A DNA stretch of 64,000 bases from Isoetes taiwanensis (lineage: Eukaryota > Streptophyta > Lycopodiopsida > Isoetales > Isoetaceae), in assembly GCA_021234155.1 (NCBI GenBank), contig JAJEKV010000093.1, positions 2,215,712 to 2,279,711 of the forward strand. The letters run 5' to 3'. The position numbers and the translations under genes were made by a program. A model generated the notes under the pieces. The model saw only the letters and a list, made by a program, of their open reading frames with translations. It made no database searches and was not told the DNA's origin. Numbering within the stretch: position 1 is the first letter of the stretch; each line of letters begins with the position of its first letter. Positions 1,625-59,905 of the stretch are shown piece by piece.

Positions 1625-1940
1625 TTGTGGGCTTGTTACTAACTCACAAGTCGATTGGACTAATGATATTCGAGAATACAAATGCTATTCCAGAATAGTA
1701 TTTTGTGTGCAGCATTTGCTGTGTGTGTGCAAAGATGCTATTCCAGAATACACTTGTCCAGAGTGTTTGGACAAGACGTATTCCGCATCACATAGAAAAA
1801 CACAACTGATAGTGGCCTACCTTTAAAAAGAAAAATCGAGCGCCTCAGTTGCGTATTCCGCTTTCAGAGATTTAGTCGCCAGCCCGAGCGCCTTCCGATC
1901 AATATTCATTTGCTGTATTCCGATTTACATAGCGAAAACA
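1625..1940. promoter_or_regulatory. Divergent intergenic region with palindrome sites
   Basis: This is the gap between the minus-strand transposase-like gene and the plus-strand ParB-MTase start. It holds two decayed palindromes (TATTCCAGAATA at 1686-1697 and 1739-1750). Three half-sites (GTATTCCG) lie near 1779, 1853 and 1915. A shared promoter region is inferred only from the divergent layout. Confidence 0.45.
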
Positions 1941-2011
1941 ATGGACAGGTAAGCATGTAAAGTACATAGTACATCTTTCTTATGTTTCCTGATTTGCTTT
2001 TGTAGGCCAAA

Positions 2012-2277
2012 GTGTATTCCGGAATACACTTTGCCCATCTGGCGAAGAGCAAAGTGTATTCCGGAATACACTTTGCTTGTGTTTTTGAGAACACTTGTTT
2101 TTTTGCACTTAAATAACACACTTTTTAGCTGAAACAGACCACTTTTTAGGTTAAAAATAACAGTTTCGAATCCAATTAAGGCACAAGAAATTGACTTAGA
2201 GTGACAATATTTTTGCTTGTTTTCCTGTCTTTTTCTGGCCTTTAGGGCACAAGATTAGTAAATGTTATTCTGGAATA
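2012..2277. repeat. Palindrome sites in intron 1 of copy 1
   Basis: Two perfect GTGTATTCCGGAATACAC dyads lie at 2012-2029 and 2054-2071, 42 bp apart. The flanks extend the symmetry with AAA/TTT and GC. A decayed TATTCTGGAATA site is at 2266-2277. Confidence 0.9.
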
Positions 2278-3727
2278 CAGTTTTCGTTTGAATTTCTGTC
2301 TTAACATGGTTGTTTTAAACGTTTTAGTGGCAGGGAAGAAGGAAGCAAGAGGGCATCAAAGAAATCTCAGAAGCCTAAGCGTCCACACCCTCAAAAGCAC
2401 ACCGCTGACACGGACGAGCCTGCTATTTACGAAAACTATCAAACGCAATGGTTCGTAACCAGGGGTGCAGATGGAAAATACAGCACACTGACGTTTCTGT
2501 ACGTCTGTAAAAGTGCTGGGAACAAAAGGTACGCCGACTCCGAGTTTGTTAACCTTGGGACAATAAAAGATGTCTCCGAGGTTGCCAGACAAGGAGGTCA
2601 GGTGGGGAGGCTATCCTTCAAGACCTCCCAAGGCTTCATTGTTGTGGACATCGCATTCTTTAGAATTGTCAGTGTGCAACCACAGGCACTGTACAAATTT
2701 TTTTCACACTACCGGATAAAACGAACCTTGTGTTCAGTAATTAGACAGGTTTGTTCCAGTACAAGCGAGGACTTTCCTGTCAGTGAGTCCGAGCAATCAG
2801 ATGGAGAAAGGTCACAATCACCACCATCTGCTAGTTCTTCAAGGAGGTCATCAGATGGAGGTTCCCAGGAACAAGACGAGGAAGAGCCCCCTGTGCCGCC
2901 AAAGAAACTTAGCAGGCCAAGGGCAACCATAGCTGCTAAGAACCAAAGAAGCGAAAAGTACAGCAACTTGAAATCACAGAAGTCCCCGAGGAAAGCTCAA
3001 AAAAACAAAAGGGAAAAGGAAAAGCTCCCGGGGTTGCAATAAAGGAAAAGAAGGTTGATAAGACCTCTGAAAGAATGGAGGTTATTAATAGAGAAAAATT
3101 TGTACAAGGGGTGATTTATCTTCCTGTGACTAGCATGAGGCTGCCCCCAAAGAATGAGTCTGGCGAAAGGCCGCTTCAAGTTCGAAAAATTTATGCCGAC
3201 CACTTAAGGAACTTGAAGGACAGAATTAGGAGCAATCCAAATGCTCATGTGGCCCCAATAGTTGTCCTTGTTGACAGGGAGCAATGCAAAACCCCCCAGG
3301 AATATGACAGAGAAAACGCAGAAACATACACTCACTACGTCTTGGGAGGAAATCATAGCTTCAAGGCAAGAAGGCAGCTGTACAAACAAAAGAATAACCC
3401 CAGGTACCTCTCTGTCTTGTGCGCAGTTTACTGTGGTCTCACCGACGAGGAAGCAAAAATCGTTGCCAACACCCATAATGCTGACAACGAGTACAAATTA
3501 AAGATGAGCTTCGTCGACAAGATCCAATTTATGTAATGTGGAGTATATGATTTTAAGGAAAAATATGGAGAAGATTTGAAGAAACCGCATACTCGTTAGA
3601 ATCGAAGGAAGCGTCGTTTGTGGAGTCTTTGCCTTAAGTACAATGAAGCTAATAAACGGCAGTCTCTCATACCGCGTGACAACTGGTTTCAACTAGCCTT
3701 CAGAGATGGCAGGGTAAGTTTCTTTTG

Positions 3728-3739
3728 TATTCTGGAATA
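3728..3739. repeat. Palindrome site in intron 2 of copy 1
   Basis: A single TATTCTGGAATA site sits in a 62-bp intron. It differs from the TATTCCGGAATA consensus by one C-to-T change at the central CpG. Confidence 0.85.
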
Positions 3740-4100
3740 ACCATGCAGAAACTAACCTTGTTTGTTACCGTGCAGATATGGGACCTTCAAAATGAAATTT
3801 TTACCATGTTCGAGCGTGGTGAATTAAAAAGTAAAGGAAAGGTCTCGAGAAAAGAAGAAAGGTTTCGACGTCCGAAGAAGGAAATGGCGATCACGGTGCC
3901 CGAGAGAAATGCGGGGCTTTACATGGACATACTAGAAAGGCTACTGCAGAAGGTCGTTGATAAAGAGTTTACGCTCGAACAGATGTCCAAGGAACTGCAC
4001 AAGTAAGAACGACAGAACTTTCATTTAAATTTTCCTTCCGTAGTTGGTTCAGTCTGCAAGCTGAGATGTCTTTCGAAACACACTTTTGTTTTTCGGGAAG

Positions 4101-4341
4101 CCAAAGTGTATTCCGGAATACACTTTGGCTTAATTAGGGAAGTCAATGTGTATTCGAATACACTTTGGCTTACAAGCCAAGAAGCCAAAGTGTATTCCGG
4201 AATACACTTTTGCTTTGAACGTAAAGCAAAAATGTATTCCGGAATACACTTTTGCTTCGAACGTAAAGCAGAGGTGTATTCCGGAATACACTTTTGCTTT
4301 TGGCTTGTAAGACAAAGGGTATTCCGGAATACACTTTGGCT
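4101..4341. repeat. 42-bp-period palindrome array in intron 3 of copy 1
   Basis: Six dyads around TATTCCGGAATA start at 4106, 4148, 4190, 4232, 4274 and 4318, an exact 42-bp period for five and 44 bp for the last. The second site has lost the central CG. Flanks keep CAAA/TTTG symmetry, and spacers share AACGTAAAGC. The array takes up most of the 404-bp intron. Confidence 0.95.
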
Positions 4342-5138
4342 TCTTCTTGGTGCTTTCGTTTTCCAGAAAACAATACTCACCTTGTTTAATTGTTCTTGAC
4401 TTCCAGCCAGAAAAATGTTATTACGTGCCAAACATGTTTAATGGAGCAATTGAACATGGACAGCTGGGACAGATGTAAAGAGCTCTATCCCATAGCAACT
4501 TCCGACGAGCGTATTATTCAATACGCTCCAAATTTTGAGGGCTGGGTACGTCTTTTTCCTGTTTTTAATGTTTTTCTTTTGTGATGCCTGCCTAACATCA
4601 TTTACTAACAGAGCAAGAAGAAGAACAAGGACCTACCAGAAGGTTTTATGCACCTGGTAAGGACAGCCAGAGAAGAGAGGACTCTAGCGGATAGGTGTAT
4701 TGTTGATGTTGAGCCCTCCGACTACGAGAGGTTTTCCATGTTTGATCAAAATAACTATTATTTTATCGTTCATGGGGACTGCACTAAGTTGGCTGGAAGT
4801 ATAAAGCCACAAGATTTTACTTTGGTCATAGCAGACTTGCCGTATGGGTTTTTGAAGGATAGCCCTTCGACGATCGGTCATTCAAAACTCGAATTTAATG
4901 CTTTTCGCCGATGGAATTAAGCAAGGTTACCACAAAGAAAAAACCGGGCGTCTTGTTGTGTTCCACCCCAAAGATGCAATCCGGACTTGTGGAAGCTACT
5001 TTCAAGAACCACCGGTTCTCTCTGTGCAAGCCGGTTATGAAAATATGGTCTGGTGAGTCTTCAAATCTCGAGTGCAGTTGAAACGTTCTTTCTTTCAAGT
5101 TTTGAGTCATTGTTGCAGTTGTAACTCTCGTCATGTTC

Positions 5139-5171
5139 TATTCTGGAATACGTACTTACTATTCTGGAATA
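5139..5171. repeat. Two palindrome sites in intron 5 of copy 1
   Basis: TATTCTGGAATA occurs at 5139-5150 and 5160-5171, 21 bp apart (half the 42-bp spacing of the intron 3 array). Both carry the same C-to-T change. Confidence 0.85.
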
Positions 5172-5851
5172 CGATCTTGCAGGTACAAAACTAATATTTA
5201 CTACCATGGTGGAGGACCGAGGCTACTGAGCAAGGTTGAGTATCTCCATGTAGCTTACTGGAGTTTCGACGGGAAGCGTACCATGGAGCACTTTAACACA
5301 GCATCCTGCCAAAATTTTTCTAATGTCCTAGAGTTCCCCCAGATATTACGAAGCTCCGGGACCCAAGTGCACAAGGCAAAATTGTGAATCATTACCAGAA
5401 GCCACAGAAGCTAATTAATCATATTCTGGATATGTTTTCACGTCCAGGAGATTGGGTCCTAGATGCTTTCTCTGGCTCTGGTACAACAATAGCATGTGCA
5501 CTTAAAAAGGGACGTAATTGTGTTGCTGTTGACATTGATAAAGAGGCTGTAGACTTTATTAAGATGCGGTTTATACGCTCTACCAACTCTACGGATGAAA
5601 ATCAAGAGTTGGGAGCCAAATCATCATCTGATTTTGCCAAGATGACATCTTCTGAGATACAACCTCCTTTCACAAGCTCTCTGGAAGATGAAGCTACCTT
5701 TGCAGAGCTCAAAGAAGTAGCTCTAGTTACTATTCCTGAAGAGACTGTTGACACCAACAAAGATAAAATAGTGACAAAGGAGCAAACTGTGGAGATAGAA
5801 AAAGGTGAGACGAGCAAACCACACACTGAGGACTTCGATTTAGACCTCTGA

Positions 5852-6160
5852 GTTAGTTTTTGCTATATTATTTACTACTGGCTATAAAATAATGCCATAT
5901 TTGATGTACTGAAAGAAATTAATAAAAAAAAAAAAAAATTTTATTTTTACGTTATTTTGATGTCCTCGAATTCATAGTAATATTCCTGGTGTATTAATGT
6001 CTGGAATTTTGCCATTTTCAAGTGCTCTATTCTACAAATGCAAGATCATCACTTCAAAAGAGCCCAAAATGCACGATAAAATATTTTGTTTCTCTTCAAA
6101 TCCCCAACTTCTTTTGAAAATGATCATTTTTTAAATCCTGGTGTTTTTTTTAAGGGAATC
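5852..6160. other. AT-rich downstream region of copy 1
   Basis: A 3' flank with an A-run at 5924-5938. I see no coding sequence and could not identify an element terminus here. Confidence 0.4.
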
Positions 6161-6167
6161 TTTGAAA

Positions 6168-6195
6168 CGGGAGTGCTGCAACACTCCCGTTTAAT
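6168..6195. repeat. Perfect 11-bp hairpin
   Basis: AAACGGGAGTG and its exact reverse complement CACTCCCGTTT are separated by a 6-nt loop. It lies at the truncated 3' end of the gypsy remnant and may be a small inverted-repeat scar or element terminus. Confidence 0.55.
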
Positions 6196-8573
6196 TTGCA
6201 ATCGTGTTAACCTTGGTTGTATCAAAATGGCAGTTAGAAAGCTTGCCAAACAAGCGGTGCCGTCGTAGCTTTTCCAAGATTTTCCTTGGGTGTGCTACGT
6301 GTTCTTCCAATGACTTGCTATATATGAGGATGTCGTCGAAGAAGATGATGACGAATTCATCCAAATACTTCCTGAAGATGTCGTTCATTAGCCTCATGAA
6401 TGTTGCGAGGGCATTTGATAAGCTGAAAAGCATGTCTATAAATCAATAATGTCCATACCGCATTTTAAAGGCAGTCTTATGAATTTCTTCTTCCTTGATT
6501 CTTATCTGATGATACCTGGATCTCAAGTCTATCTTGGAAATGACTTTCGCCCCTTGGAGTTGATTCATCAAGCTGTCTGCTCTAGGTAAAGCGTTGTTCT
6601 TTACCATCTGCTTGTTGTAGTCTATACACATCCTTAGACTTCCATCTTTTTTCTTTACAAAGAAAATGAGTGTCCCAAAGGGTGAACGCTTGCTCTGATG
6701 AATCCAAGTTCAAGCAATTCTTGTTTCTTGAGCTCCGCTAGCTCTGGGATGTTCATCTTGTAGGGGGCCTTGCTGTTAGGCTTAGCATCTGGTGCTAGTG
6801 TGATTTCACATTCCACGCCTCTGTAAGGCGGCAATTCACGGATCTCATCCGGAAAGACATCATGGAATTCCCTGATTAGCCTTGCAACTGACCTGGGCAA
6901 CTCTTTCAAACTTGGCTCACCTTGCTTTTCTTGACCCAGCTCAATTGCCTCTAGTCTAAGGATATACTCCACTTTGTCCTTCATTAAGCTTTTATGCAAT
7001 TGCTTCAAAGAGATACACTGCATGACTGAAAGGACTTTCTTACCTTTAACTACAAAGCGGTTTTCTTCGGATGCTGTGATCGAGATTTCGTGCCTGTCGC
7101 AGTCAATCATATCTTTAGCTGGCTTCAAGAACTCCATTTCCACTATGAAGTCGTATTTATCAATGCCCATTACCTATGCTCCCATGATCAATTTAGTTCC
7201 ACTGAGGTCTATATCAAAGTTGACTATCTTACCCTTCGTGTGGTGAATTGCACCACTTGCCATACTGACCGGTCTGGGTTTGGACTTAAGGGTCTTGGAC
7301 TTCAATAAAGTGGCCAGTTTGGGAGAGGCAAAGTTGTGAGCTACCTGTATCTATGAGGACTACGTTGGGCTTATTATCAATGATGCCCTCAGCTGAAATG
7401 ATGGTGGACTGATTTTTGGCATCACCTTACTCAATAGATGCACAGATTCTACACTCACCTTTTGTCCTGTGGTTCTTGTTGGTCGTCTTCATCGTCGTCC
7501 ACTTTTGTTGGTGACTCCCAATCAATGAGTTTTGTCAGTGCTGCTTGCATCACGAAGGGGAATTATGTGTGCGATGACCCGGCTGGAAGCATCTGAAACA
7601 TAGCTTCTTCTTTATGCATTCCTCCCTCTTTTCCTTGGGGATACTATCCAAAAAGAATTTCACTGACTTTCCCCTTGGACCCTCCCGGTGCTTCTGCTCC
7701 CCATATGAGCCTTTCCTATCCATCTTTCCCTGAGATTGCTGCCCTGCTAGTGTGGAGGATAGCTGCCTGGGTTGATAAGAGCCTGTTGCTTTCCCCTTGT
7801 AGAATGATTGTTTCTGCCCGGGGGTTGTCGGTGCTTCCTCCAAGCTTAGTGCCTTGTCTTCGGCCTCCCCAATTGTTTTCAACCTCTTAATGTTATTGTT
7901 CAGTCCCTCAATACAGCCATCCACAACCTGCCTCTCTGTGATCCTTGGAACATTTAGCCTTGGTCTCATGAATTCCTCTATATATTTTTCCAATGATAGG
8001 TTCCCTTAATCCAATCTGTAGAACTGCTGAATCTGCCTGCTTGTGTGCGACCTTGGGACGTAGCGCTTGTGGAAAGCCTTACTGAAGACTTTGAATCTGC
8101 AATTGTTCCTTCTCAGCTTGTTTGACTTGGCATATCCTTTCCACCAAATGCGAGCTGGCCCAAACAGGTTTGTTGTTGTCACTTTTCCTATGTCCTTGTC
8201 TTTCATGCCATATGAGTTACCAAATTCTTCCATTTCGTCCAACCAGGCTTCAGCTTCCATTCTTGACCTATCCTTCCGGAGAACTGCCCCAATTTTCGAG
8301 TTTTCCACACGTTACTCATGGCACCATCGACCTTTTTCTGGTAGTCCCCTGTTCTATGGTTCCTGTCCCTACCTTGTGAGGTGTCTGACTCACTTTCGGA
8401 AATGCTTCGAGATCCGTTTTCTGTATTGTCTGACTGGCTGGAGCTAGAAGGAGTTGGGCTCCTACTTTTTTTCCTCTTTCTGTTCTTCTCAAGCACATGG
8501 ACTTCTTCCTACTCTGGTTGAGGAGCTTCAGTGGTGGAGGCGGCATTGGTCCATATTCCTGTGCATACATCAA
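6191..8573 (-). pseudogene. Ty3/gypsy gag-RT remnant, truncated
   Basis: A degraded retrotransposon read right to left. The gag region (about 8573-7550) includes the typical YVP-type capsid motif and a zinc knuckle CFRCFQPGHRTH whose last Cys is now Ser. A protease/linker and RT start are at 7170-6655 (HDVFPDEIRELPPYRGVECE). RT palm pieces are at 6631-6443 ([24 protein letters not shown]) and 6433-6191 (FFDDILIYSKS, the YVDD-box region). Frames change several times. RNase H, integrase and both LTRs are absent, so it is truncated at the hairpin near 6190. Confidence 0.85.
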
Positions 8574-8749
8574 AGGCGTGGCCCACTCACTGTATTAGTT
8601 GCTACATCTGGTTACACATTCGGACTAGCTTTCCGTTGATAGTTTCAGTCGTCGTATCTTGTTCCTCGTCATGTTCTCTGCCGAAAAAGTCCCTAGGTTG
8701 CCACTGGTGCTGTCTGGCCTGACCTTGGGATTCTGAGCCGGTATTCCTG

Positions 8750-41193: not shown

Positions 41194-41209
41194 TTAGGGT
41201 CCATTCGTA

Positions 41210-41400: not shown

Positions 41401-41538
41401 CTAAAACTTAAAGTGACCTCAACGAGGTCACAATAGTCGCAGTTAGCGATCGCGATGCGTGGACGGACGAATATAGAGCTGAGACGCTGTGGATGCAGCC
41501 GTGGATGGCGAGGGCGAGGGCATGGAAATGAAGATGCA

Positions 41539-42132
41539 TGTTAGTCCTGTGCCTCCTGGTACAGGACTATTCATGCATTCCACGGACCAAGTCAAGGCCA
41601 AGGATCCACAACCAGGCGTGGGTCAGTCGTCAAAGGCTCAGCAGAAGACCAAGCAGCAGACCACGCAGTCAAAACCTGCGTCCGTCAACAAGAGGCGGCG
41701 CTCAGACAAGTGAGCGCTCGTCACCGACCGCGTCAGCGTCAGCGTGATTCTAGGCACTTCAAGAGGCACCGCCAGCATTCCTGCAAATCAGGCCTCCTTC
41801 CAGGAGTCGGCACCGAGATCAGTCAGAGTGTCTATATTGGGCCAAAGGCCATTGTACTATATATATGAGTAGAGCTAGCACATGAGTTTTAGATGAGTTT
41901 TGAGTCTTGTCTCTTTTCAGTCTTCTCTCGATTGCGAGAGCTCATGTATGTTCATCATTGATATCAAGGAAGCTTATCATTTTCCTCTCATTGTTCTCTT
42001 CTGTTCTGTTTTCTTCTTCTTCTTCTCTTCTTGCAAATCCCGCGTGACATAGTCCCCCGGATTCTCCTGTTAGATCCACGGGTCCTCACAGAGGGCTGTC
42101 TTGCAGGAGTTCCCGAACCCAGACCCCAAACA
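41539..42132 (+). repeat. 5' LTR of Ty3/gypsy element
   Basis: 594-bp LTR starting TGTTAG and ending AAACA. It is preceded by target duplication ATGCA (41534-41538), repeated at 52635-52639. A TATATATA stretch near 41862 may be the TATA box. Confidence 0.9.
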
Positions 42133-42133
42133 C

Positions 42134-42150
42134 TGTCGCCGCTGCCGGGT
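42134..42150 (+). promoter_or_regulatory. Primer binding site, tRNA-Asp type
   Basis: TGTCGCCGCTGCCGGG, two bases after the LTR, matches the TGGCGCCGTTGCCGGG complementary to plant tRNA-Asp 3' ends with two mismatches. Confidence 0.6.
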
Positions 42151-42179
42151 CTGATTCGACTTTCCTCTCGTCTGTCGCC

Positions 42180-43620: not shown

Positions 43621-44459
43621 AACAACGTAGGGACCCAACACCACGCCCCCTTTTGATCCTTCTAAAGCTCGGTGTTATCGCGTCAAGAATGGGGTCATAC
43701 CACCACGGCGTGTCCTCAACTTCCACAAGTTCAGGTGCAGCTTCCTGGCACCAATCAGACCACATCGGTCCGCCTCACGGCTTACCAACTCTGGATTGCC
43801 AACGGCAAACAAGGCCCGCGTCCTGTTCTTCGGAAGCCACCTCGCGCGCCTCAGCAATCACGCTATCAACCAGCTCCTGCCAATCAACCTCAGATGGATC
43901 AACAAGCACAGGAAGAAATTTTTCAGGCTCTTAATCCTCCGATCCGGCCCGTCAAATTGGGTTGGTTTGGTTTCCGCGCCCGGACCAGCGTCCGCCCCCT
44001 TAACCATTATTCCTAATGGCACGCAGAACCTGCCTTTGCGATCGACACCATTCCTCATGAAGAGGAAAAAAGGTTCACTTTGCACCCGACTTGGAGAAAC
44101 TCATGCCGCATGTCATGCCTAAAGTTCGCCAAAGCATTCGAACCTCATGCAAAAAGTCTTTGAAGGCCATACGTTGGCTAATGTTCATGCCACCACTAGA
44201 GCTCAACAAAGACAAGAAGCACCGTCCACATCTCAACCTCCACGCTCTCAGACATATCCGAATATTGCTGCCGAGGTTGACCTACTCAAAGAAGTTGCTT
44301 CGCTTCATTACCACGCACTCCAAAGACTGTGGATCCGGTGATCCTTTTTTTCTCATGTGCCTCGGAACTCCAAGAGGAGCTGGCAAAAATCAAAATTCCT
44401 TTAAGTCGGCAACAATTTTGAAACTCGTCTCCGCTCTCAAGGACCAGTTACCACTCCTC

Positions 44460-47400: not shown

Positions 47401-47900
47401 GCTGCCCCCACAGAGCTGGTCAGTGATCGAGGTGTCCATTTTATCAATCATACCCTAAAAGAGCTAACGGATTATCTACTGATCCATCATCACAAGAGCA
47501 CACCTTACTATCCTCAAGGGAACAGTTTGGCTGAAAGCACCAACAAAACTCTGGTCACAATTCTCAAGAAAATTTTGTGGCTTCAGACCGATTGGCAAGA
47601 CAAGCTTCCTACTGTTCTTTGGGCTTACAATACTTGTTTCAAAATAGCTATTGGTCACACTCCTTTCAAATTGGTTTATTAAAAAGCTCTCATGCCTTTT
47701 GAGTACATCCTTCCAACTCTCCGTTTTCAACTGGCTACAGCCCATAATCTGCCTGCTGCACTCAAAGAAAGGGTTTATCAATTGGAACAGTTGGATGAAC
47801 TTAGGCGTGATGCTTATATTCGTGTTCTTCATGGCCAACAGTTGCAAAAATCTTTACATGACAAACGTATTAAGACAAAAACATTCCAAGAAGGTGATTT
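44460..47900 (+). pseudogene. gypsy pol: protease, RT, RNase H, integrase
   Basis: A protease-like stretch near 44530 reads VNHVQIGGGSA where D(S/T/G)G is expected, so the catalytic Asp appears lost. RT spans about 45480-46080: HSEWVSPIVIA; RVCVDYRKLNQ; FMDGFSGYNQI; FQDDFSAYSS at the YxDD box. RNase H: HVDVSAFAIGAVLSQE near 46380. The integrase HHCC zinc region (HEGLGGGHFHGD..CDACQR) is at 46990-47160, and its core has D (VMDFVGPI), D (VSDRGVHF) and E (PQGNSLAES). The frames are broken in at least six places. Confidence 0.88.
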
Positions 47901-48319
47901 CGTTCTCCTTTATGATTCGATTATAAAAATTTTCGGGCAAGTTAAAGTTTATTTGGCTTGGCCCTTATCAAATTGTTCGGTGGTGGTGCTACCCGTTTTC
48001 AAAAGCTGGCTGAATTAGACGGAACTCCATTACCTACACTAGTTAATGGCTTTCGCCTCAAACCATTTCATACAACAGAAAGTGACAATCATACAACAAT
48101 TTGCTGTCCGGAACCATGACACGCAACGGATAGTGACTTCTGGCGGCATATTTATATTATATAGGTGGAATTTTTACAAAATGTGGCGAGAGCCCATCTA
48201 TTTCTGCTATGGGCAGCGCCCTATTTACAAAAACGGGCTCAGAGCCCTATCCACTAAGTCCTAAGGAGAAAACTCCTCTAGGGTTGGGAGCAGAGGGTAT
48301 CAGCGGGATGTGGTAGTAA

Positions 48320-48718
48320 TTACGCTTTCGGGGTCCCAGCAGCAGTCTTGGGAATCACCTCCATCCCGTTGGTATGGGGATCGGCATGCTCAGCCATGCC
48401 AGCACACCACCCGTCCATAGCAATGCCACGATTGTGGCACCACCAGAGGTCCATGCAGTCCATTTTACAAGTGATCCACTCTAGACAGTTAGAAGGCATC
48501 GTGCACTTGTCGTGCAAACTAGCGGCGGGCATATCTGCGAAGCCATCGGGTGTCTCAAAAGCCGCTCCACGTTTCGTCTTATATAGCCAACCCGAGGGGA
48601 CCTCCACGGCCGGCGTGGACCAATCAGAAAATTCGCCAGCGTGGTTTGCAATGCAAAATTTGTTACTAAATGAGGAATCTTTTCTCCGCCGCATATCTAG
48701 CCATGGTACCTTCGACAC
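48320..48718 (-). CDS. Antisense ORF in gypsy 3' region, Cys/Trp-rich, 132 aa
   Basis: Open minus-strand frame whose composition looks coding (CLEWITCKMDCMDLWWCHNR; MDGWCAGMAEHADPHTNGME). It lies between integrase and the 3' LTR, antisense to the retroelement. Antisense ORFs in this place are known in some plant Tat-lineage elements. Function unknown, and no family recognised. A chance frame or a captured fragment remains possible. Confidence 0.4.
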   Translation of the reverse strand: MSKVPWLDMRRRKDSSFSNKFCIANHAGEFSDWSTPAVEVPSGWLYKTKRGAAFETPDGFADMPAASLHDKCTMPSNCLEWITCKMDCMDLWWCHNRGIAMDGWCAGMAEHADPHTNGMEVIPKTAAGTPKA

Positions 48719-49949
48719 TTTCGTTTTAATGATATCCCCGCCGAGTTACCCGGCATTAAATGACATTCCTTCTTTTCACGCCCGTCGAACATTAATGTGT
48801 GTCCTTTTGCCACCTGTCACATCCGATCATTCCCTTACGTCTCATCGCCACCGATCATTGCTTCTCCCTTTACCATTTGGGGACTTAGCAAAATTTTGCC
48901 CTTCAATCGCCAACTTTGCATCTGTCGCCACCTGGCATCATCAACGGTTGAAGGTTCGCCCTCATCATGCCCCTTCACCTACACTTGCGCGCCCTAAAAC
49001 CTTTTCGTCTATCTGCGCCTTCGTCTTACGTTCTCGCTCTCCGCCTTCTCCAAAGCGGTTCCTTACGTTCCGACGCTCTTTGCCATGGTTTGCCCCAAAC
49101 TTCCTACACTTGGGGCTACGCTCCAAAGGGATGCAACTGTTTTTTCGTATCTTTCTCGGCCCACCTTTTCGTGAAGCCCTTCTTGGTCCAAGTCGGAAGT
49201 GGCGGGCATACAACCCGGCCCCAATCCGGGAGCAATTACAGCGGTTCATCGGCTCACATCGTCCAGCGGCCGCGGAAGGATTTGCTTTCACGATTGGTCG
49301 ATGGCACCACCATTTTACTTTTCGGCATTTGCTTTACGAGGTATTCCGTATTCCTTTGCAAAAACCTTACGTCTCTTGGGCTGCTTCTACGGGACATGGG
49401 CGTCACACTCGATTCGGTGCTCTGCTTATCAAGCTAACCGGCATCGCCTCACAAATATTGCAAAGTCACATGACACTTTTGTGAAGTTTCGTGGGCAAAT
49501 TGCTGGGTATTCCATCAAGAACACCCATATTAATAAGCCGTTCTATAATATGGTCATCAGCGCCATCCACTCAATACGCATGTTGATTGGCCACATTTAT
49601 TGTTCTCTTGCCTTCTTCAAAGTAGACCGCGATGGGGCTACCCCCTCCTCTGTCTCACGAAGTTTGATTGGGTGGCCATCTTGGGCACTCATCAGTCATT
49701 ATCTTCTTCTTGAGAGCCCTTCCACTTCCCATACCTCCACTCGGCCGGTCTCTGCATTCCCGTCGTCAAACTCAACAAAATTTGTACCTTCCGCATGGAC
49801 TTCCCCTCGATCACTGTTCACCACCGGACCACACATGTTTGTCTCCTCTTCCTCCTCGAAGCCCGCCTTCCAATTCCGTCATGCTTCTCAACAATCTCGG
49901 ATAAGGCAACAGCGAGGATTTTGCACCTCCACATCCTCGGCTTGACTCT

Positions 49950-52000
49950 GTACAAATTCGGCCGGGATGTTCAAGGCTGCTGCCATGCGGTTACAAGCAT
50001 CGGGAGGCTCTCATGAGCGGTGTTGAGGCATCCTGGAAGGCTTCCGTGCGGTTCAAAGACCTCAAGCTGCTGGCGCACAAGTTCAAACTTTGGAGGCCCA
50101 ACTTCAAAAAAAAGCAGCGGCTCTATTACGAGGCCCGTGTAGATCTCAAAAAGTGCTCGGGATCGAGACCAGCCTACTTGCGGATCGGCCGGGGCTCAGC
50201 TCCAAACTACAATTCAGGACTTATTGGAACAGAACAAGTCCAAAGATACCCTCCTGGGTGACAAGGAGAAAGATATTGCTAAGCTAGACACCTTGTACTC
50301 AGAGCTTTGTGACAATTACCGCACTCAAGTTCATAACCTTACCGAGCGTGAGGCTAGACTCACCTCTCTAGAAGCTCAGCTTTCCACGGCCTGACAAATC
50401 AGCTAACGTCCATCCAGGATCAGCTTTGGGGCTCGGAAACAAAAGGTCATAGATGGCCGAGATTGCCACGCCGACTCCAAACTCGGGGCAATCTTCTTCA
50501 CATGCCACGCTTCCTATTAAGCGGGTCCGTGATCGGGTCCCGTCTTCTCTTAGAAAAGGAGAACAAGATCCGTGACCTGGAACATCAGCTCCAGCAAGCA
50601 GTTCAATCTGCTGAAGAAGCCCAAAACAAACAGGAGGGCTATATTGAAATTGCTACCAACATTCCTGTGGACTTCTCTACTCCTTCCAGCTATCTTGACT
50701 ATGTGGTGGCCCGACGGCACCTTTTCTTTTTAAAGTGGTACGCGGCCAATGGCAATGTTCATCAACAGCCACTCAAAAGTGTGGACTTCCTTCGGATCTG
50801 GCCGGATCTTTCTATAGAAGACAAGGGTTTATTTTGTGCACTCTTAGTCTTTGATCAGCTCACTTCTGAAGATCCCGAATTGGTCATTTTCCGTGTTGTT
50901 CAGCCCATGGCTTATGTTTTTCATGACTTCTACCTGGCAGATCTCCTTGATAAATTCCGGGATGAGGCCCATTGTGTTTTTCGTGGCAACTCCAATGCTG
51001 CTTGGTTGTTATCGGCAACCAACCAATATTTCAAGGATCCCTTTCGGTCGGACTTTTGAACAGAGTACATGCGAACTTGCTCAACACTTACCACCTCGTG
51101 GCGGGGCTGAAACATTGGTACCGAGTAAACAAAAATTTGGCGCATCCCGATGATCTTGAGTTAGCCCAAATTTATATCGAAGACTTGGGAGGCTACAATC
51201 AAGCTGTGGCCTTACGGAAAGCAAGACCATCCCAGCGGGTTGGGTAAATCCTCTGTCTATCAATTACTCTCTACTTCAGAATGGGACCATTGGTGTCGTG
51301 CTCTTGATCAAGATCTCGTTCGAGCATTCAGGGACATGGCTCTGCAACCCACGCACACAGGCCTGCTTCCCTCTCCATATGCTTCCTTAGGAGTCCCACC
51401 ACGCCCACGGTTCCTCTCTTCTGACTGGCGTCTTCCCTTTTGGGCCAGAAGGTCTGGATGGCCTACGGGTCGACTCGCCTCGGATCTCGGCCGGATCTCC
51501 GGTGGGATCGATTTGTCGGGCAGCTCCAATTGGGAGGATAATGCCACCTTGGACACTACTGAGAATTGGATTTATATTGGTAATGGCGTGGTTGGCAAAG
51601 GCTGCGATGCTTTGCATGGTCTTGATACCTTCTTGCGAGAATGCGCCACCTCACGGACCCGCCGATCCACCGTCAAAAGCTGGTTTTTACGTCTGCTGCT
51701 CTCAAATGCATCCTTTCGGCTCTTTAAATCGGCGGCGTCAATCTTTCCTTTACCAATCCGAATGCCGGCGTCGGTGCCCGGTCTCGGACCTGCTTTCTCA
51801 TGGAGTGCCGGTTTGTTCGCCCGGACGCCCATCTTTGCCACGGAAGACATGGTGGCTCTCACTTCCTCATTGATGCCGATCACGCCCTTGGGCTCCAGCA
51901 CTCGGCGCCCTTCAAACCGCGGGACCTCATTGCTCATTACCATAATGGCACCCGACCTCATTCCGTGAGGATCACTTTCAGACTGCTGGTTTCCCGCCCT
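49950..52000 (+). pseudogene. Extra 3' ORF region of the gypsy element
   Basis: Sense-strand frames at 50463-51059, 50972-51247 and 51240-51968 appear to be one frameshifted protein. It has a coiled-coil segment (KENKIRDLEHQLQQAVQ) and a hydrophobic/aromatic region (YLDYVVARRHLFFLKWYAA), then WYRVNKNLAHPDDLELAQIY. It is not clearly an envelope protein: I see no signal peptide or membrane anchor. Function unknown. Confidence 0.5.
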
Positions 52001-52047
52001 CGGGGCTTACTTCCTCCATTTCTTGGTGAGTGTCATTTGGTGGGGAG

Positions 52048-52634
52048 TGTTAGTCTGTGCCTCTGATGCGGGACTATTCATGCATTCCACCGGACCAAGT
52101 CAAGGCCAAGGATCCACAACCAGGCGTGGGTGATCGTCAAAGGCTGTGAGAAGACCAAGCGGCAGACCACCTGCAGTCAAACTGCGTCCCCGTCAACAAG
52201 AGGCTTCGGACAAATGGCGCCCGTCCGGCCGCGTCGGCGTCCGGCGTGATTCTAGGCACTTCAAGAGGCTTTGCCAGCATTCCTGCAAATCAGGCCTCCT
52301 TCCAGGAGTCGGCACCGAGATCAGTCAGAGTGTCTATATTGGGCCAAAGACCATTGTACTATATATATGAGTAGAGCTAGCACATGAGTTTTAGATAAGT
52401 TTTGAGTCTTGTCTCATTTCAGTCTTCTCTCGATTGCGAGAGCTCATGTATGTTCATCATTGATATCAAGGAAGCTTATCATTTTTCTCTCATTGTTCTC
52501 TTTTGTTCTGTTTTCTTCTTCTTGTTCTCTTCTTGCAAATCCCGCGTGACATAATCCCCCGGATTCTCCTGTTAGATCCACGGGTCCTCACAGAGGGCTG
52601 TCTTGCAGGAGTTCCCGAACCCAGACCCCAAACA
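52048..52634 (+). repeat. 3' LTR of Ty3/gypsy element
   Basis: 587 bp, TGTTAG to AAACA, preceded by a purine-rich TGGTGGGGAG tract. Pairs with 41539-42132. Confidence 0.9.
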
Positions 52635-52639
52635 ATGCA

Positions 52640-53950
52640 GAAGATTACCAGGTAGAAATTTTTGTGTTCTTGTGTTTTTTCTTCCTCCCCGTTCTGTGTT
52701 TAGCATATTTTTGATGAATTTGGATCTGAACCTGGTACCAAATTTCGTCCCTCTCTCAGCATCCCATGCCATCTTTTGACTTTCCAGCTTTCTACATAGA
52801 CCTTTCTTTATGTGTTTGGCTTCAAGCACCTAAGCAAACAAACACTTGAGCTACAGCTTTCAAAGCCATTTCTAGTTGATGATGTTTTTAGTTCAGTATT
52901 AAAATCAATTGGCAATAAGCTTGTTCTTTTTGCAAGTTTGGAATTAACTGTCTTGGCCATTAATCATCTCTTATGTAAGAAAATGTAGTTCCTTATATGT
53001 GACGTCGTCAATTTTGAATTGCAGGCTGTGGCACAAATTAAACAGCCAGATTGGGCTCATCCAGATTCTGCTTGAAAATTGCACTTGGTTGAATGCTTCA
53101 CCTGGCTCTATCAGATATACACAAAAGGAATAAAGACCTGGCCTATTCTTGACCATAACTGATTGCAAAGCACGTGGTCTGAAGACCCATTTAGCAGAAT
53201 CCAGTCCATTTTATTTCTGAACAACCATTTTGTTCTATGATTTCCAAACCCCCAATTGCTTTCTAAACGTCCTTCCATGTAGGGTTTTTGTTTATGTATT
53301 CAAAAGTTCTAAGGACAATGCAGTGTTAAGCTAGGAAGGGACAGCAATAGGGGAAGCAAGACTTCAAAAACATACCAAAAATCTAGCATGACTTTTGGAG
53401 ATGACCACTGTTCATGACTTGCAGATTATAGAGACAGATCAAAAGAGAAGGGCAGACCGTTCTCATATTTCCTTGACTCCCGATGTTATCATTTATATAA
53501 TGTGCCTTGCTTTCATATGTCATTGTAACGGAGCGTTCTGCTGATTACAAAACACAGAAGATGCACGATACATGCAACTAAAGGCATATGAGAAATAAGA
53601 GGTACAAATTGTTGTAAGCCCAATTTGAACTATTTATTAGTCCAGCGCCATGTTGCACAATGTAAGATGAGTCTGCCATAGTTTGTCTATAAAATATTTT
53701 CTGCTGAGAACTCTCTGCAGGTTCTTGTTTATTTTTATTTTCTCACTTTATCATTTTAGCAGGTCCCCTCTTGTTTGATCAAGTTAACAATCCTCAGATG
53801 ATATTTTCTACTGGATCCAAACTTTATATGTTCAATGAACCAATCAATCTGCCAGCAAAGGCATCGAATCATTTGATTTTTATAGTTAGAATCATGTGTC
53901 TTACTGTTGTCTAAATATGCATTTGACTTGTGTTTTTCTTAGGAGATAAG
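52640..53950. other. Sequence inside PIF-like element with exon-like pieces
   Basis: The gypsy insertion interrupts ATGGAAATGAAGATGCA / GAAGATTACCAG, which is followed by a GT donor at about 52652. A TTGCAG acceptor lies near 53023, then a short open stretch (LWHKLNSQIGLIQILLEN). It could be a captured first exon pair or chance. The rest is noncoding. Confidence 0.25.
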
Positions 53951-54075
53951 AATATGTAGCAAAATAACAGGGGGTTTTTTTTGTATTTTTGTACGGGTTT
54001 TGCTATGGTTTTTATATGATTTGATGGGGGTATTCTGCGAGGCATACTAATCAGTACTTCTAGAGTGCGCCCCGT
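53950..54075. repeat. Dispersed repeat shared with 28850-28965
   Basis: AATAACAGGGG, a T-run, TATATGATTT, GAGGCATACTAATCAGTAC and TCTAGAGTGC occur in the same order at both places, about 115 bp long. Confidence 0.7.
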
Positions 54076-54639
54076 ATTTTTTTCTTGAAATCCATATCTT
54101 CAATGGTTTACCCCCTTTTTAGCAGGGTTTTATTTTTATTTCCATGGTTTATTTAAAATTTATCCCCATTGTTTTGTATTTCTATGATTTATTTAGAAGT
54201 GGTGTGCATGCAGGGCTCGAGCCGTGCTACTTTAGGGTTAGCTGAAGCCATTTAGGTATTTCCTGATTCTGCAGGCATAAGGCAAAGCAGCAGCGATGCT
54301 GCCAAAATTCGAGTATGCAGCAAGGAATTTCTTCCTCGGTTCGTGAAGACTTGGAGCAACCTCTCAACTATGCAAGGAATTATTTGGCAGACATTCTTGA
54401 GCCTTGCATTCAACGGGTATCAGGCAAACAAAAGCGGAAGCTGGGAGTGCAAGTTGGTTGTGGAAAACATAATTTCTGAAAGCATACAGAAGTCTTATAC
54501 CTGCGATATGGCAGAAGGATATGGCCAGGATTTTTGCTCTTTGGTTGTGCTGGATGGTTGCGTAATGCTGTTGTCGAACCAGGATAAGGCTCTACTTAGT
54601 TCCCTCACAGATTACCAACATGCAAAGTACCAGTAGCTT

Positions 54640-54942
54640 GCTTTCAAATTAGACAACTATGGCACAATCTACTTCGATTTTTTCCCTCCTCAGCCCCTCC
54701 CCCCTTTCTGCTTCTTCCTCTCGGGTTCCAAAATCAGGTAAGATACTATTTCTTTCTTTTCTTTTATTTATTGACATAATCTGACATAAAATGATCATTT
54801 TGTTCATCCCTTGCCACAGCCTCAAAACTATTGGAATAGTTGCTGCTGGGGTTTTTCTGCTCATAGCAGCATGCATAATTTTACTTCATTTGGACTTGGT
54901 TGTGCTAAATGTGTTGGGAGATTTATACAGATCTAAATCTTA
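54640..54942 (+). CDS. Two-exon membrane-segment fragment, unknown gene
   Basis: The first piece reads YGTIYFDFFPPQPLPPFCFF and ends at the donor after TCAG (about 54737). The acceptor near 54819 (CCACAG) gives, in phase, SLKTIGIVAAGVFLLIAACI then ILLHLDLVVLNVLGDLYRSKS and TAG at about 54942. The second exon is a convincing hydrophobic membrane segment. Upstream coding at about 54340-54636 may belong to it. Probably a host gene fragment carried by the PIF-like element. I do not recognise the protein. Confidence 0.35.
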
Positions 54943-54944
54943 GT

Positions 54945-55975
54945 GCAATGTCAGCCTGGTGCAATACTGTGAGAATAGAAATAACAATGCAGGTAAGAGA
55001 TAATATGAAGAATAAAGAGTGCTTTAGAGCCTTTCAGACATTTTAAAGGAAGGCATAAAGAGGGGCAACTATTGAACACTTTTGGTTATGTACACCCGCT
55101 TCTCTTTCAAAAGCACAATAGATGGAAGGCTTGCAAATGTCCTAAGCCATATTTGTTCTTTTTTTACCAGGTTTGAAGCACGTATTTTATTCAGCGTACA
55201 TCTATTATCTACTATGATAAACACAGCTAATTACGTCCTACAAGGCCATGGCACAAAGGTCTTTAATGAATTGCAGATCAATGGCTTAATGCCACTGACA
55301 CATGCATGATTTAGGATGACGAAAAAATTGCCCCAAGCTCACTTTGTCACTGAGATTTCAGTAATGTGTTGAGTTGCCAACATCTTCGTAGATGCCACAC
55401 ATCAGATTGTTATTAGATTGTTAAAGAAGACCTAATAGCTGCAGATTGGTTTCACTTATGAATCATAAGCTTCCTTGGGTCTTATCTTTTTTGGCCATTT
55501 CAGTTGGTGCATCTATTCTTTGGTTTCTGTTCTGGGCATATCTTCAGCCATGAAGGTTTTTGATCTATATCCATTACAATCCATTTCATTTGGATATGTT
55601 TCGAGAATTTAGCACGCAATTTGTATGCATGCCATTTGTATGCATACCTATAGCCTATTTCTGGACATGTTTCTTCAACTAAGATTTTCCTACATATTTA
55701 TTATGTGTATTATCTGTTAGCTTGGTCTACATCCTTTTTGCAAAATTTGACTTCTTAATGCAAGCCTTGTATTAGTTGTGCGTATGGTTGAGGCATGTTT
55801 TTATTCCCTTTCAAAATATTTAGGTTTCACATGATTTGTTTGCTCTTCAGGTTGGAAACCACTCTTTTTAGAGATATAGTGCGTAGGAGCACACCGTCTT
55901 AGGCACAAGAACCTATAGCGATGTACACAACAATCATAGACAATTTTCAATGCCAGGAAGAAAAAAAATTTTAAC
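54945..55975. other. No clear gene
   Basis: AT-rich. A weak open stretch at 55170-55309 after a TTACCAG acceptor-like site is the only exon-like piece; nothing else supported. Confidence 0.3.
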
Positions 55976-55976
55976 C

Positions 55977-56372
55977 TATAACACAAACCATTACATTACA
56001 CGCATTAAAATTAAATTCCCCCTTAAACCCCCTTTTGTTTGGGTGCATATTCACACGGGGGTGACGTGAGAGGCGAGAGAGCCCTTTTAATTATGTATTG
56101 CATGTACAAAATCAACACCATATAGTATATTGCCTGAAATCTTATAGTATTTTGCAAATCTTGTTATACAGTATCATAATTTCTATACATCCATACCCCA
56201 CAAACGAGGAATTTTGTGTACGGTGTAGATTAAGGAATAAGGTGTGAATATGCCTATCCAACAGCTCTCGTTGCCCGGAGTCACCCCCCGTGTGAATATG
56301 CACCCAAACAAAAGGGGGTTTAAGGGGGAATTTAATTTTAATGCGTGTAATGTAATGGTTTGTGTTATGCGA
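55977..56372. mobile_element. Inverted-repeat MITE, copy B, intact
   Basis: About 395 bp with long inverted repeats from AACACAAACCATTACATTAC to its mirror GTAATGGTTTGTGTT, containing CCCCCTTAAACCCCC and GGGTGCATATTCACACGGGGG. The interior matches copy A (CTTATAGTATTTTGCAAA; CATACCCCACAAACGAGGA; CAGCTCTCGTTGCCCGGAGT). Confidence 0.88.
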
Positions 56373-57800
56373 GCATTATATTTGCCAACTCCTGTTGTTA
56401 AGGAACACTTAAAGGAGGATTTGAGTGTAAAACTTGCAATGATTGCTGATAACAAATATTTCTAATTTTTCCATGCGGTAAAAATGGTGATACTGTTGGT
56501 GCATTAGGTATTACCTGGATAGAAAACGGGCAATGGAAATCTTTAACAGCATTGGACTCATTAACATGTTAAGGTAATTATATAAGCTGGACTAGTGAAA
56601 GAAGCCTGTTAACATGTTAAGGTAATTATATAAGCTGAGCTATAGAATTATCATACATATGAACCGGTCTTCTGCACAATATTTCGTTGAGCTAGTTCTG
56701 TAAGTTCTGGTCAGGTTGATCGATACCGGGCCCTGTGATATGCCAGTCCTGGCTCTATGTTTCCTTCTGTCTTCAATCCATAGTTCTAACCTCCGGTAGA
56801 ATACAAAAATTTGGGCAACCTAATCTGTCGTTTGCAGCGAAGAATTTGAATTAACACTCCAACCTGCAGAATGCTAACATGCAGCTTTAAACGAAGATGG
56901 GATTCGTACAATTTTGCATAAGGATGTATCATCAATTCGATGCAGACAGAAGTTTACATCTTTTGTTTTATGACAGGAACGGTCGATTTTGCTTAGTCTT
57001 GTCCAAAACTCTATAACCTTAGCAAGCTCGAATTACAGGCTATCATGACAGCAGTAGTTAGAACCCTAGGTAAACAAAAGCTTCTTCAAGATTTAAAAAT
57101 AAAGAGACTACTTATAAACAGTTTTTATTCTCTCTGTATTCTTCTTATAGGGATATGGATTGACCGAATATTAGCTGCGTGACTCTGTCACATTTGTGGT
57201 CCAGGACACATACTCCTTTGAAATATCCTATATGTCAAAGTATGTATGGAAACGTACTCATAGCTTAGCAAGCATGGCCAACATCAATATATTTCCGCTG
57301 TAGTCCGGTGAATTCTTTCTAATAGATTCTCTCATTGACAAATCAGAGCAGACAAAGAAACCTTGCCATAGAACAAATGCCAATTGTATGCAATTTGATC
57401 AAGCCCAGTAACTTCAACAGAGTCTCTTTTCCATTGTCAATCTGGAAACTCTCCAGGAAGAGGCCGACCATAGTATTCTGAGTTGTCCAATAGGTCAGTA
57501 AGGCCTTTGATAGAGAGGTTCTACCTTTGTTTTATAAATCTTTTAAGCAGAGTCTTTAAATATTTCTAAATATGGCTTTAAAAATGGATTTAAATATTTT
57601 CAAATATGGCTTTAAAGATGGCTGTAATTATCTGCCACATTGTAGACTTTTTTATCTGTAATATCCTTTCGAGCACACAAAGCTCATATAATGATCATTT
57701 TATGCTAGATTGTAGTTTTATGATTAAAGTGTTTGTCTTTTTTTTTTATGTGGTATACAGGACTAGATTCTATGGTTTTTATGGCTTAAGGGGAAAGGTC
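56373..57800. other. No gene seen
   Basis: AT-rich noncoding sequence inside the PIF-like element. It includes a local duplication of GTTAACATGTTAAGGTAATTATATAAGCTG-type sequence at about 56562 and 56608. Confidence 0.45.
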
Positions 57801-58130
57801 CTTGGAGTAGGTAGTTAAGTTGGAAATAAATAGATAACTTAACTGAAAAAATATTTGATTTAAGTTAATAACAATAAACTTAATTAGATTGGTGTGAATG
57901 TAATTTGGTTAAGTTAAAATTGTAACTTAACTAAAAGCATGTCTGAAGGGATTTTGGTTAACCACTATCTTAACAAGACAATGTCTGAACTACACGTAGT
58001 TAGGTTAGATTTTTTTCATTTAACTATGTTTGGTGTGAAGAAATTTAACTTCTAGTTAAGTTACGTATTTAATGGAAACATAACTATTTCTAGTGTAAAT
58101 GCAGTGGTTCTAGTTAAGTTTAACTAACGG
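57800..58130. repeat. Subterminal repeats, right end of PIF-like element
   Basis: Many TTAAGTTA/TAACTTAA motifs and GGTGTGAA (about 57891 and 58032), matching those at the other end in inverted orientation. Confidence 0.55.
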
Positions 58131-58150
58131 CGGGTGCGAATAGACCCTTA

Positions 58151-58865
58151 TCTTTCTTTTCTTTCTTTTCCTTCTCAGGATCTTTGTGATCCTTTCTCTT
58201 ACCTTTACCCTTGCCCGCCGATTTTCCTTCCTCCGTTTCCTGGCCAACATCTTCAGTAGCAGAGGAGGAGTCTTTTTCGGCTGCAGTAGCCTCCTTAGTT
58301 TGTCTTGTCTTCTTCCTGGTAACTGTCCGAAGCCAGGCCGTGTCCACATTGCCGGGTAGTTTCTGAGAGGCTAATGCCTTGACAACAAATGAAGGCGAGT
58401 TTTTCGACTCGTTCATACGATTGCGAAGAATATGATAGCCCCTCAAGATTTCTTGTGGACCTTGGATATCAGCTTCTTCAAAGTTGTTGTAAGATGGCAG
58501 CGCCCAGCCTTGCTTCTTCGCCGAACCAGATACATTTGCAATACTAGCAGACATCATAGTGGGATCATAAAACTTCCAGTCCACATAGTAGATAATTATT
58601 CTCTGCTCAATAGTGTCCTCAAGGACCACCCGGAGCCAATCATCGTGACCGCTCTTGGTAATCTTCTTCATGTTCACCACGATACCCGGCTGGTATATTC
58701 CTTCTGACTCTCCGGACATCTCCCTTATAAGCAAGCAGAGCTCTCTTCTGCAGTCTCCTTTCGAGCCTGTAGGAGCAGACATGCTCACCCGCATTACTTC
58801 CATGCACCAGCTCCTGTCTGTCAGCATGATTGTCTGCTCGGATTGAAGTTCCACGCGTAACGCAG
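58151..58865 (-). pseudogene. ParB-MTase gene copy 2, 5' half (interrupted)
   Basis: Long exon after an acceptor TTTCAG (58868-58866). It encodes a globular N-terminal domain (LTDRSWCMEVMRVSMSAP; DDWLRVVLEDTIEQRIIIYY; DWKFYDPTMMSASIANVSG) followed by an increasingly Lys/Glu-rich linker (KGKGKRKDHKDPEKEKKEKK). At 58150 it runs into the PIF-like element. With that removed, GAT-AAA-AGA joins this exon to 41193 in frame. The same layout (N domain, charged linker, ParB, MTase) is seen in copy 1. The exon itself is open throughout. First exon not identified; a candidate is ATGGCTAAGCGCCATGCCG before a GT at about 60476, weakly supported. Confidence 0.75.
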
Positions 58866-58919
58866 CTGAAACAAAGAGGCATCATTAATGGCACCAAATG
58901 AACAAGCCGGCAAACCAAA

Positions 58920-59905
58920 CGAGAAGTAGGCAAATGGCGCCATTTGCATCTAAGTCCAATGCATAAACACTCATGGAAGCATTCGCATATACATTAGCTC
59001 TATTGACAGGAATAGAGAACGCTACACAATAAGAAGCAATCTACCAAGCAAATGGTGCGATGATGGCACCATTTGCTTATGAATTGCTTATTATTGGGTT
59101 TTTGTTCACCATATGTTTTTGTTCAAACCAGACGAGAAGTCGGCAAATGGTGCCATGAGTCCAATGCATTAACACTCATGGAAGCATTCGCATATGCATT
59201 GACAGGAATAGAGAAAGCAACACAATAAGAAGCAATCTACCAAGCAAATGGCGCCATCGCGCCATTTGCTTATGAATTGCTTATTATTGGGTTTTTGTTC
59301 ACCATGGGTTTTTGTTCAAATCAGACGAGAAGTAGGCAATATGCCTAATCCCAATAAGCAATCTACCAAGCAAATGGCGCCATGGCGCCATTTGCCCAAG
59401 AGTTGCTCGATTTGTCCTAATTAGCAAATGGCTTGACCATAGTCGCACCAGTTCACAATCGAATAGCGCCATGGCGCGATTTGCTTGGTAGAATGCTTCA
59501 TAGATGGGTCTTAATACGCCCAATGTACATGCAAATGGCGTCGTGGTGCCATTTGCTTGGTGAGACGCGACTTACTGGGCTTCTAGTTATCCATGGGTGT
59601 CAATAAGCTTGTTAGGCTTAGTCTTATTGACACCTATGGATAACCTGGAGCCCAGTAGGATATGTTCATTGGGCTTATTGACACCCATCTATGAAGCATT
59701 CTAAACAAATGGCGCCATGGCGCCATGGCGCCATTTGCATATGAACTGGTTATGATGGCGACTATGGTTAAACCATTTGCCATTAGGACAAATCAAGCAA
59801 AACTTAGGCAAATGACGCCATTTGCCAATGGCGCCATTTGCCAACAACAAAACTCCCTAAAGTAAGCTAACAGGCATCCAAATGGCGCAGTGGCGCCATT
59901 TGGAA
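58920..59905. repeat. GGCGCC palindrome array in 5' intron of copy 2
   Basis: About eleven clusters of the dyad GCAAATGGCGCCATTTGC, some doubled or tripled (GGCGCCATGGCGCC near 59370 and 59705), at about 58933, 59045, 59142, 59245, 59370, 59462, 59530, 59705, 59812, 59827 and 59880. Decayed forms read GGTGCC, GGCACC, GGCGTC and GACGCC. Some sites lie in larger repeat units of about 190-215 bp that start at about 58921, 59136 and 59330. A foldback at 59580-59655 (GTTATCC..TCAATAAG) lies among them. Confidence 0.93.

Follow-up and report, generated by a model that had tools for sequence, protein, structure and literature searches.

The window analysed here is a 64,000-nucleotide stretch of the Isoetes taiwanensis genome (C1104:2215712-2279711 of G000, a 1.66-Gb assembly of 1,110 contigs), and is rich in retroelements and transposons. 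Two diverged genes with ParB-like motifs, termed gene A and gene B, are found in it, and each is accompanied by its own palindrome, dyad A or dyad B. A third related gene, gene C, is found elsewhere in the genome with a palindrome of its own. The private association of these three related genes with three sequence-unrelated palindromes is well supported. An earlier note on this DNA had proposed that both window genes encode a ParB protein joined to a methyltransferase (ParB-MTase) and that each product recognises a private palindrome. Its picture needs amending at the outset: frameshifts or stops disrupt the window copies of both genes, and an insertion splits gene B.

Genes A and B and their palindromes in the window

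Gene A belongs to a transposon, transposon A or element A, for which the following features are identified (dyads are given without strand):

1..6208, plus strand: right part of transposon A, with its ends and target-site duplication (TSD) computed from locus L035 plus the window
158..1635, minus strand: N-terminal exons of a divergent DUF7869 gene, whose downstream exon (L035:6368-6664) matches DUF7869 (PF25273, E 1.3e-20)
1738..1751: dyad A (2 mismatches), upstream of gene A
1941..5851, plus strand: gene A, ParB-like with N4/N6 methyltransferase, intron-containing; this copy is broken by frameshifts and one stop
2014..2069: two exact dyads A, 42 bp apart, in intron 1 of gene A
2265..2278: dyad A (2 mismatches), in intron 1 of gene A
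2940..3536, plus strand: gene A exon with the ParB-like motif GGNHS, assigned by the motif and a weak profile match
3727..3740: dyad A (2 mismatches), in the gene A intron after the ParB-like exon
4108..4332: five exact dyads A with spacings of 84, 42, 42 and 43 bp, in a single gene A intron
4609..4920, plus strand: gene A exon with methyltransferase motif IV, DLPY (VIADLPYGF), assigned by the motif
5138..5172: two dyads A (2 mismatches each), 21 bp apart, in the gene A intron before the methyltransferase exons
5324..5851, plus strand: last exon of gene A, N6_N4_Mtase with FSGSGTT (PF01555, E 5.8e-17)

The complete transposon A has a length of 8,153 bp (G000:C1104:2213767-2221919), 1,945 bp of which lie outside the window on the left. 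It carries terminal inverted repeats (AACAAGATTGCG.../...) and is flanked on both sides by the 4-bp TSD AACC. TSDs of 4 bp are observed in all four elements with both ends located (AACC, TTTA, ATAC and ATTA), and Sola transposons have 4-bp TSDs. Gene A and the DUF7869 gene are arranged divergently on opposite strands within this one element. DUF7869 has no assigned function in Pfam, and the DUF7869 gene of element A is the probable transposase. GGNHS of gene A is a motif which we take to be ParB-like, and the methyltransferase domain is related to MboIIA and CcrM. DLPY is kept in five of six readable gene A copies (window, L016, L019, L028 and L033; L026 is frameshifted) and FSGSGTT in several. 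Our protein search gives at least 150 copies of gene A among 3,056 candidates.

Dyad A has the sequence GTATTCCGGAATAC. Twelve sites with at most 2 mismatches are present in the window, all of them within 1738-5172 and located upstream of gene A or in its introns. Dinucleotide shuffles give a mean of 0.14 sites and never more than 1.

Gene B lies on the minus strand in the right half of the window, and a fragment of its type is found further left:

28607..28760, minus strand: fragment similar to the 3' flank of a gene-B-type element; dyad-B sites lie near 28697 and 28743
38435..40035, minus strand: C-terminal exons of gene B, frameshifted, without a recognisable methyltransferase (sequence reading)
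40121..40171: two dyads B, in the gene B intron after the ParB-like exon
40203..41196, minus strand: gene B exon or exons with the ParB-like motif NGNHS (sequence reading)
41197..58147: 16.95-kb insertion splitting gene B, with inverted ends GGGTC[CT]ATTCG[TC]ACCC and the 3-bp TSD TTA
58148..58881, minus strand: N-terminal exon of gene B, cut by the insertion, 45% identical to L036 over 163 aa
58932..59901: dyad-B array with GCAAATGGCGCCATTTGC and AAATGGCG-N6-CGCCATTT forms, upstream of gene B

The ParB-like exons of genes A and B align by profile with a probability of 61% and an E value of 8e-5 in one comparison. At least 150 copies of gene B are found among 4,057 candidates in the protein search, and those listed range from 100% down to 56% identity. 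In the gene-B-type copies of the window, L036, L038 and L039, the position of DLPY reads DTRC, DARQ, DTRG and DTRR; this position is placed by eye, as the C-terminal alignment with gene A is weak (hhalign probability 0.6%). The methyltransferase motifs, (D/N/S)PP(Y/F/W)-type motif IV and FxGxG motif I, are not recognised in any of the four copies, which also have no Pfam match. The C-terminal part of gene B would be either a decayed methyltransferase or a different domain; neither way is it a recognisable methyltransferase, which amends the description of gene B as a ParB-MTase. A divergent partner of gene B is not recognised in the 400 bp examined outside the window.

The 22-bp form of dyad B, AAATGGCG-N6-CGCCATTT, occurs at nine sites with at most 3 mismatches, all in 40121-40171 or 59246-59901 (shuffles: mean 0.29, largest 2). 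Its 14-bp form occurs at eleven sites with at most 2 mismatches (shuffle mean 0.50, largest 3), ten of which lie in the noncoding parts of gene B (40051-40171 or 58932-59901). The eleventh, at 28697, adjoins the stretch resembling the 3' end of a gene-B-type element. With a stricter cut-off, the cross-count of dyads A, B and C in the window is 7, 0 and 0 for the gene A span, 0, 11 and 0 for the gene B spans, and zero for all three in the remaining 53 kb. The site counts and shuffles thus bear out the observation from which the earlier note had started, namely two diverged genes with two unrelated dyads, each in the noncoding parts of its own gene.

The coordinates of the insertion in gene B are hand-counted, its ends and TSD are read by eye, and by its TSD we presume it to be PIF/Harbinger-like. 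Within it, a repeat pair (41742-42041 and 52244-52543; 10.5 kb apart, 97% identical) may represent long terminal repeats. Upstream of gene B, several short TTGACACA/TGTGTCAA-type repeats are observed in AT-rich DNA at 60000-60420, and repeats with an AGGCGC-rich stretch at 61004-61380. An array of CAGGCGCTTC-like units is located upstream of the L036 gene (L036:300-420). Between the two genes, a long LINE-like frame (endonuclease, reverse transcriptase and zf-RVT) is found on the minus strand at 17636-23201, with a 558-aa frame upstream of it.

A third gene and the association across the genome

The third pairing emerged without being sought. Locus L020, fetched for dyad A, contains at 1-2110 a minus-strand gene about 50% identical to gene A, and the introns and upstream region of this gene hold a different palindrome, dyad C (GGTATAAATTTATACC), at 26 sites with at most 2 mismatches. 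Within bases 1-4000 of L020, 23 dyads C with at most 1 mismatch are counted and none of A or B, and the neighbouring A-type part (5000-10000) has five of A and none of B or C. Dyad C is absent from the window and the 30 other loci read. A second gene-C exon, at C16:319225, has dyad-C sites about 1.4-1.8 kb off on both sides among the positions listed; the gene-first sample for gene C is this one. At least 150 copies of gene C are found among 2,725 candidates, and DUF7869-like neighbours lie beside both A and C genes. The cross-count of the three dyads against the three gene types is diagonal.

In the genome, 3,720 exact sites of dyad A, 98 of the dyad B 18-mer and 7,218 of dyad C are present. 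For a fourth palindrome, a 26-mer, the number is 1,727, and a control with the reversed pattern gives zero for each palindrome. The fourth palindrome (CTTTCTCGACTCGCGAGTCGAGAAAG) forms eight near-identical 26-bp copies at L023:5590-6090, frequently spaced by about 49 bp. This array has A-type promoter dyads on one side and, at some distance on the other, a gene-A-like exon at 9602. Its cores are also found with at most 1 mismatch in L016, at 8072, 9346 and 9659. In 400 shuffled loci no palindromic 12-mer core occurs more than twice.

The association is also observed in gene-first samples, in which copies are selected by protein match alone. All four gene-B copies (93, 89, 60 and 56% identical) contain AAATGGCG-N6-CGCCATTT in the 161 bp after the ParB-like exon, and none of these four stretches contains the A half-site. 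L036, a 59% gene-B copy off the protein list, has dyad B after the ParB-like exon and near the gene start. Both gene-A copies (97 and 93%) contain dyad A in the expected intron, within the 210 bp read of each, and the B half-site is found in neither. Of 50 listed exact dyad-B sites, 12 lie no more than 20 kb from one of the 150 gene-B exons listed, compared with 0 of 50 listed dyad-A sites (chance 0.36% per site). In the proposal of the earlier note, the private association is strongly supported and extended to a third gene, by the diagonal cross-count, the gene-first samples and the copies of 56-60% identity. Methylation as the shared function is not supported, in view of the gene-B lineage.

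Dyad architecture and competing explanations

Not one of the 173 dyads A in L016-L035 overlaps a recognised exon, whether of ParB-MTase or of DUF7869; the exon hits cover 51.6 of 200 kb, and some loci overlap. The dyads might be the sites of the DUF7869 transposase or of host transcription factors, with the ParB-like protein unrelated to them. They do lie in the shared promoter region of divergent genes, DUF7869 genes accompany most A loci and DUF7869-like neighbours exist at both A and C. Transposases of other families bind internal repeats. We regard this explanation as unlikely, as the dyads are concentrated in the introns of the ParB gene itself and none is seen within the DUF7869 genes of L028 and L035. 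Furthermore, the three palindromes follow the three ParB gene types, and for gene B no DUF7869 gene is identified within the DNA read.

The neighbouring sites of dyad A are regularly spaced. Among 113 gaps below 200 bp, 70 are of 40-43 bp and 11 of 19-22 bp, with overlapping loci counted twice. Genome-wide, 1,098 exact A pairs lie 28-58 bp apart, and among 50 listed pairs 46 are at 40-42 bp, 3 at 31-32 bp and 1 at 49 bp. For dyad C, the gaps fall into clusters at 28-35, 59-65 and 95-97 bp. The gaps of both dyads are near multiples of the helical repeat, to which tandem duplication could contribute. The information content falls from about 2 bits in the core of dyad A to about 0-0.1 at positions 20-24 from the centre, the core figure being inflated because the sites are selected by their core match (at most 2 mismatches). 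With dyads defined in the window only, 0 of 60 core positions are changed in L026 compared with 43 of 141 linker positions, and 2 of 60 compared with 48 of 139 in L028; the contrast is weaker in L016 (8 of 60 and 57 of 142). Passive spread of palindromic minisatellites in transposon introns, with no binder at all, would agree with the regular unit length of the arrays and with the L023 array, which has no recognised ParB exon. It is rather improbable in view of linkers with near-zero information next to a core that is near invariant except at its CpG, and of cores that change less than linkers. In addition, copies of about 60% identity retain the dyad in the same intron, and the exons are dyad-free.

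Dyads are also kept where the genes are missing. Three full-length but gene-less derivatives with the ends of element A are identified, in L017 (4,284 bp, TSD TTTA), L021 (3,778 bp, ATAC) and L031 (3,176 bp, ATTA), and no hit to ParB-MTase or DUF7869 pieces is obtained inside these three elements. With at most 2 mismatches they contain 9, 12 and 9 dyads A, respectively, and element A contains 12. All three were found via dyad A, so that dyad-less derivatives would have been missed.

The centre of 178 TATTC-NN-GAATA sites reads CG in 74, CA in 45, TG in 42 and something else in 17. CA and TG, 87 of the 178, are the pattern of CpG decay, so the CpG of dyad A has probably been methylated in the germ line. 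The most simple source of this methylation is probably host 5-methylcytosine (5mC), and the decay is no proof of marking by the encoded methyltransferase. The dyad could nevertheless be the substrate of that enzyme (N4C or N6A), its function then being the methylation mark. The conservation of DLPY and FSGSGTT among gene A copies and the PF01555 match (E 5.8e-17) speak for such a role, as does the central CpG, whose cytosine has probably been methylated in some form. Host 5mC usually leaves CpG decay as its trace, however, and such decay is found in the exons of gene A too, where 89 of 512 CpG-majority cells are TG or CA (17%) and non-CpG transitions amount to 8-9%. The gene-B lineage, in which none of the four copies has a DPPY-type motif or Pfam match, keeps its dyads. 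We consider the substrate role quite improbable, and methylation as the function shared by the families is not supported, on account of this lineage, which retains dyads without a recognisable methyltransferase.

Since the sites are all palindromes, many of them intronic and with mutually complementary neighbours, they could act as RNA hairpins or DNA cruciforms, as a source of small RNA or in the control of splicing or transcription. The complementarity of the arms within a dyad is 0.592, compared with 0.611 in within-array shuffles, and 4,956 of 5,000 shuffles reach the observed value. The arms of one dyad are thus no better paired than those of neighbours, which speaks against pairing in RNA or cruciforms; nor does the same test support co-variation between the two half-sites. 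Moreover, in about half of the A dyads the centre is disrupted by a single CpG change that no matching change accompanies. With the covariation test negative, the hairpin or cruciform explanation is rejected as very improbable.

Proposed family-specific recognition and its precedents

The reading which we prefer is that the ParB-like accessory protein of each transposon family recognises the palindrome of that family, and from the sequences we give it a probability of roughly 0.6. The arrays, which lie in introns, in the promoter region and elsewhere in noncoding DNA and are kept in gene-less derivatives, would serve as its sites. Because the dyads persist in derivatives without genes, one protein could mark all copies of a family in trans. 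With spacings near 21 and 42 bp for A and near 31 and 63 bp for C, adjacent sites would lie on one side of the helix, which would fit cooperative binding. The likeliest pay-off would be private self-recognition, by which the element counters silencing by its host or regulates its own expression, as VANC does for VANDAL. In families A and C the putative methyltransferase domain may add a mark, and in family B the domain appears to be lost. This apparent loss would make binding, rather than methylation, the shared core. Self-marking or anti-silencing fits best as the function, with copy-number control and transposition inseparable from it. Binding of the dyad by the protein and what the binding does, likewise anti-silencing and co-evolution, are what we infer from the pattern of genes and sites.

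Several points weigh against this preference. The ParB profile match of gene A is weak, with DUF6551 at E 0.0019, under the cut-off, and PHROG 723 'ParB-like partition protein' at E 0.2. A PDB search with the ParB-like part of gene A gives no match, and an AlphaFold2 model from the single sequence has a pLDDT of 37, which gives the ParB assignment no fold backing. The DUF7869 protein could be the dyad binder instead. The gene-first samples are small, with two copies for A, four plus L036 for B and one for C beyond the discovery locus. Since the 19 other loci were chosen via dyad A, their A counts carry no independent weight; among these loci, one B-type hit appeared. Finally, no ParB-like exon is recognised beside the fourth array within the 10 kb of L023. 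Such arrays may therefore be commoner than ParB genes, and this weakens the specificity of palindrome arrays to ParB genes.

Family-specific recognition by a ParB-like protein would have several relatives among known systems. In bacterial ParB-parS, a ParB protein acts on palindromic sites near its own gene; here, the sites form arrays in the introns of transposon genes and the ParB profile matches are weak. En/Spm encodes TnpA, a DNA-binding protein with subterminal repeats, that is, arrays of short sites inside the element. Compared with these, the present dyads are palindromic and lie mainly in the introns of an accessory gene and in the divergent promoter region.

The closest precedent is VANC, the anti-silencing protein encoded by the Arabidopsis VANDAL transposons, which shows that such a system exists in plants. 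According to the passages on VANC in PMC5735166, its targets are noncoding parts of its own family, in introns, between genes and at the ends; VANC21 localises to noncoding regions and has motifs arranged in tandem repeats, and the motifs of the related VANC6 are different. Family-specific motif arrays in the noncoding parts of their own element are likewise observed here. In contrast to VANC as described there, the putative recognition protein here is ParB-like, whether or not a methyltransferase domain is attached, and its presumed sites are long palindromes at helical spacing. For Sola1-1 of Ectocarpus, PMC12477816 describes a ParB-like plus methyltransferase gene on the strand opposite the Sola1 transposase, and its authors propose binding and epigenetic modification of the transposon's own sequence. 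Self-binding and self-modification as part of the idea are thus already in print. Gene A resembles the gene of that report in lying opposite a probable transposase and in its N4/N6 methyltransferase domain, a likeness which concerns gene A only. Palindromes are not mentioned in the main text of PMC12477816, where 'palindrom' occurs 0 times, and its passages on this gene do not deal with private motifs for each family, spacing, gene-less copies or a lineage without methyltransferase. A literature search on ParB and transposons gives nothing relevant beyond this paper, a weak absence with most subscription papers outside the search.

The question of how transposons recognise themselves amid other genomic DNA is open, with VANC as one well-worked plant example. 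Our results suggest that a private address tag marks the copies of each family as its own. More tentatively, parS-like self-addressing may exist in eukaryotic transposons: fast-diverging ParB-type proteins and private, helically phased arrays would co-evolve in each family and mark autonomous and gene-less copies even after loss of the methyltransferase, with at least three addresses, perhaps four or more, side by side in this one genome. The coexistence of three related genes, each with a palindrome unrelated to those of the others, is a natural experiment on the co-evolution of a protein and its site, and the gene-B lineage separates binding from methylation. If true, these ParB-like proteins would form a new set of sequence-specific DNA-binding modules whose targets are long palindromes.

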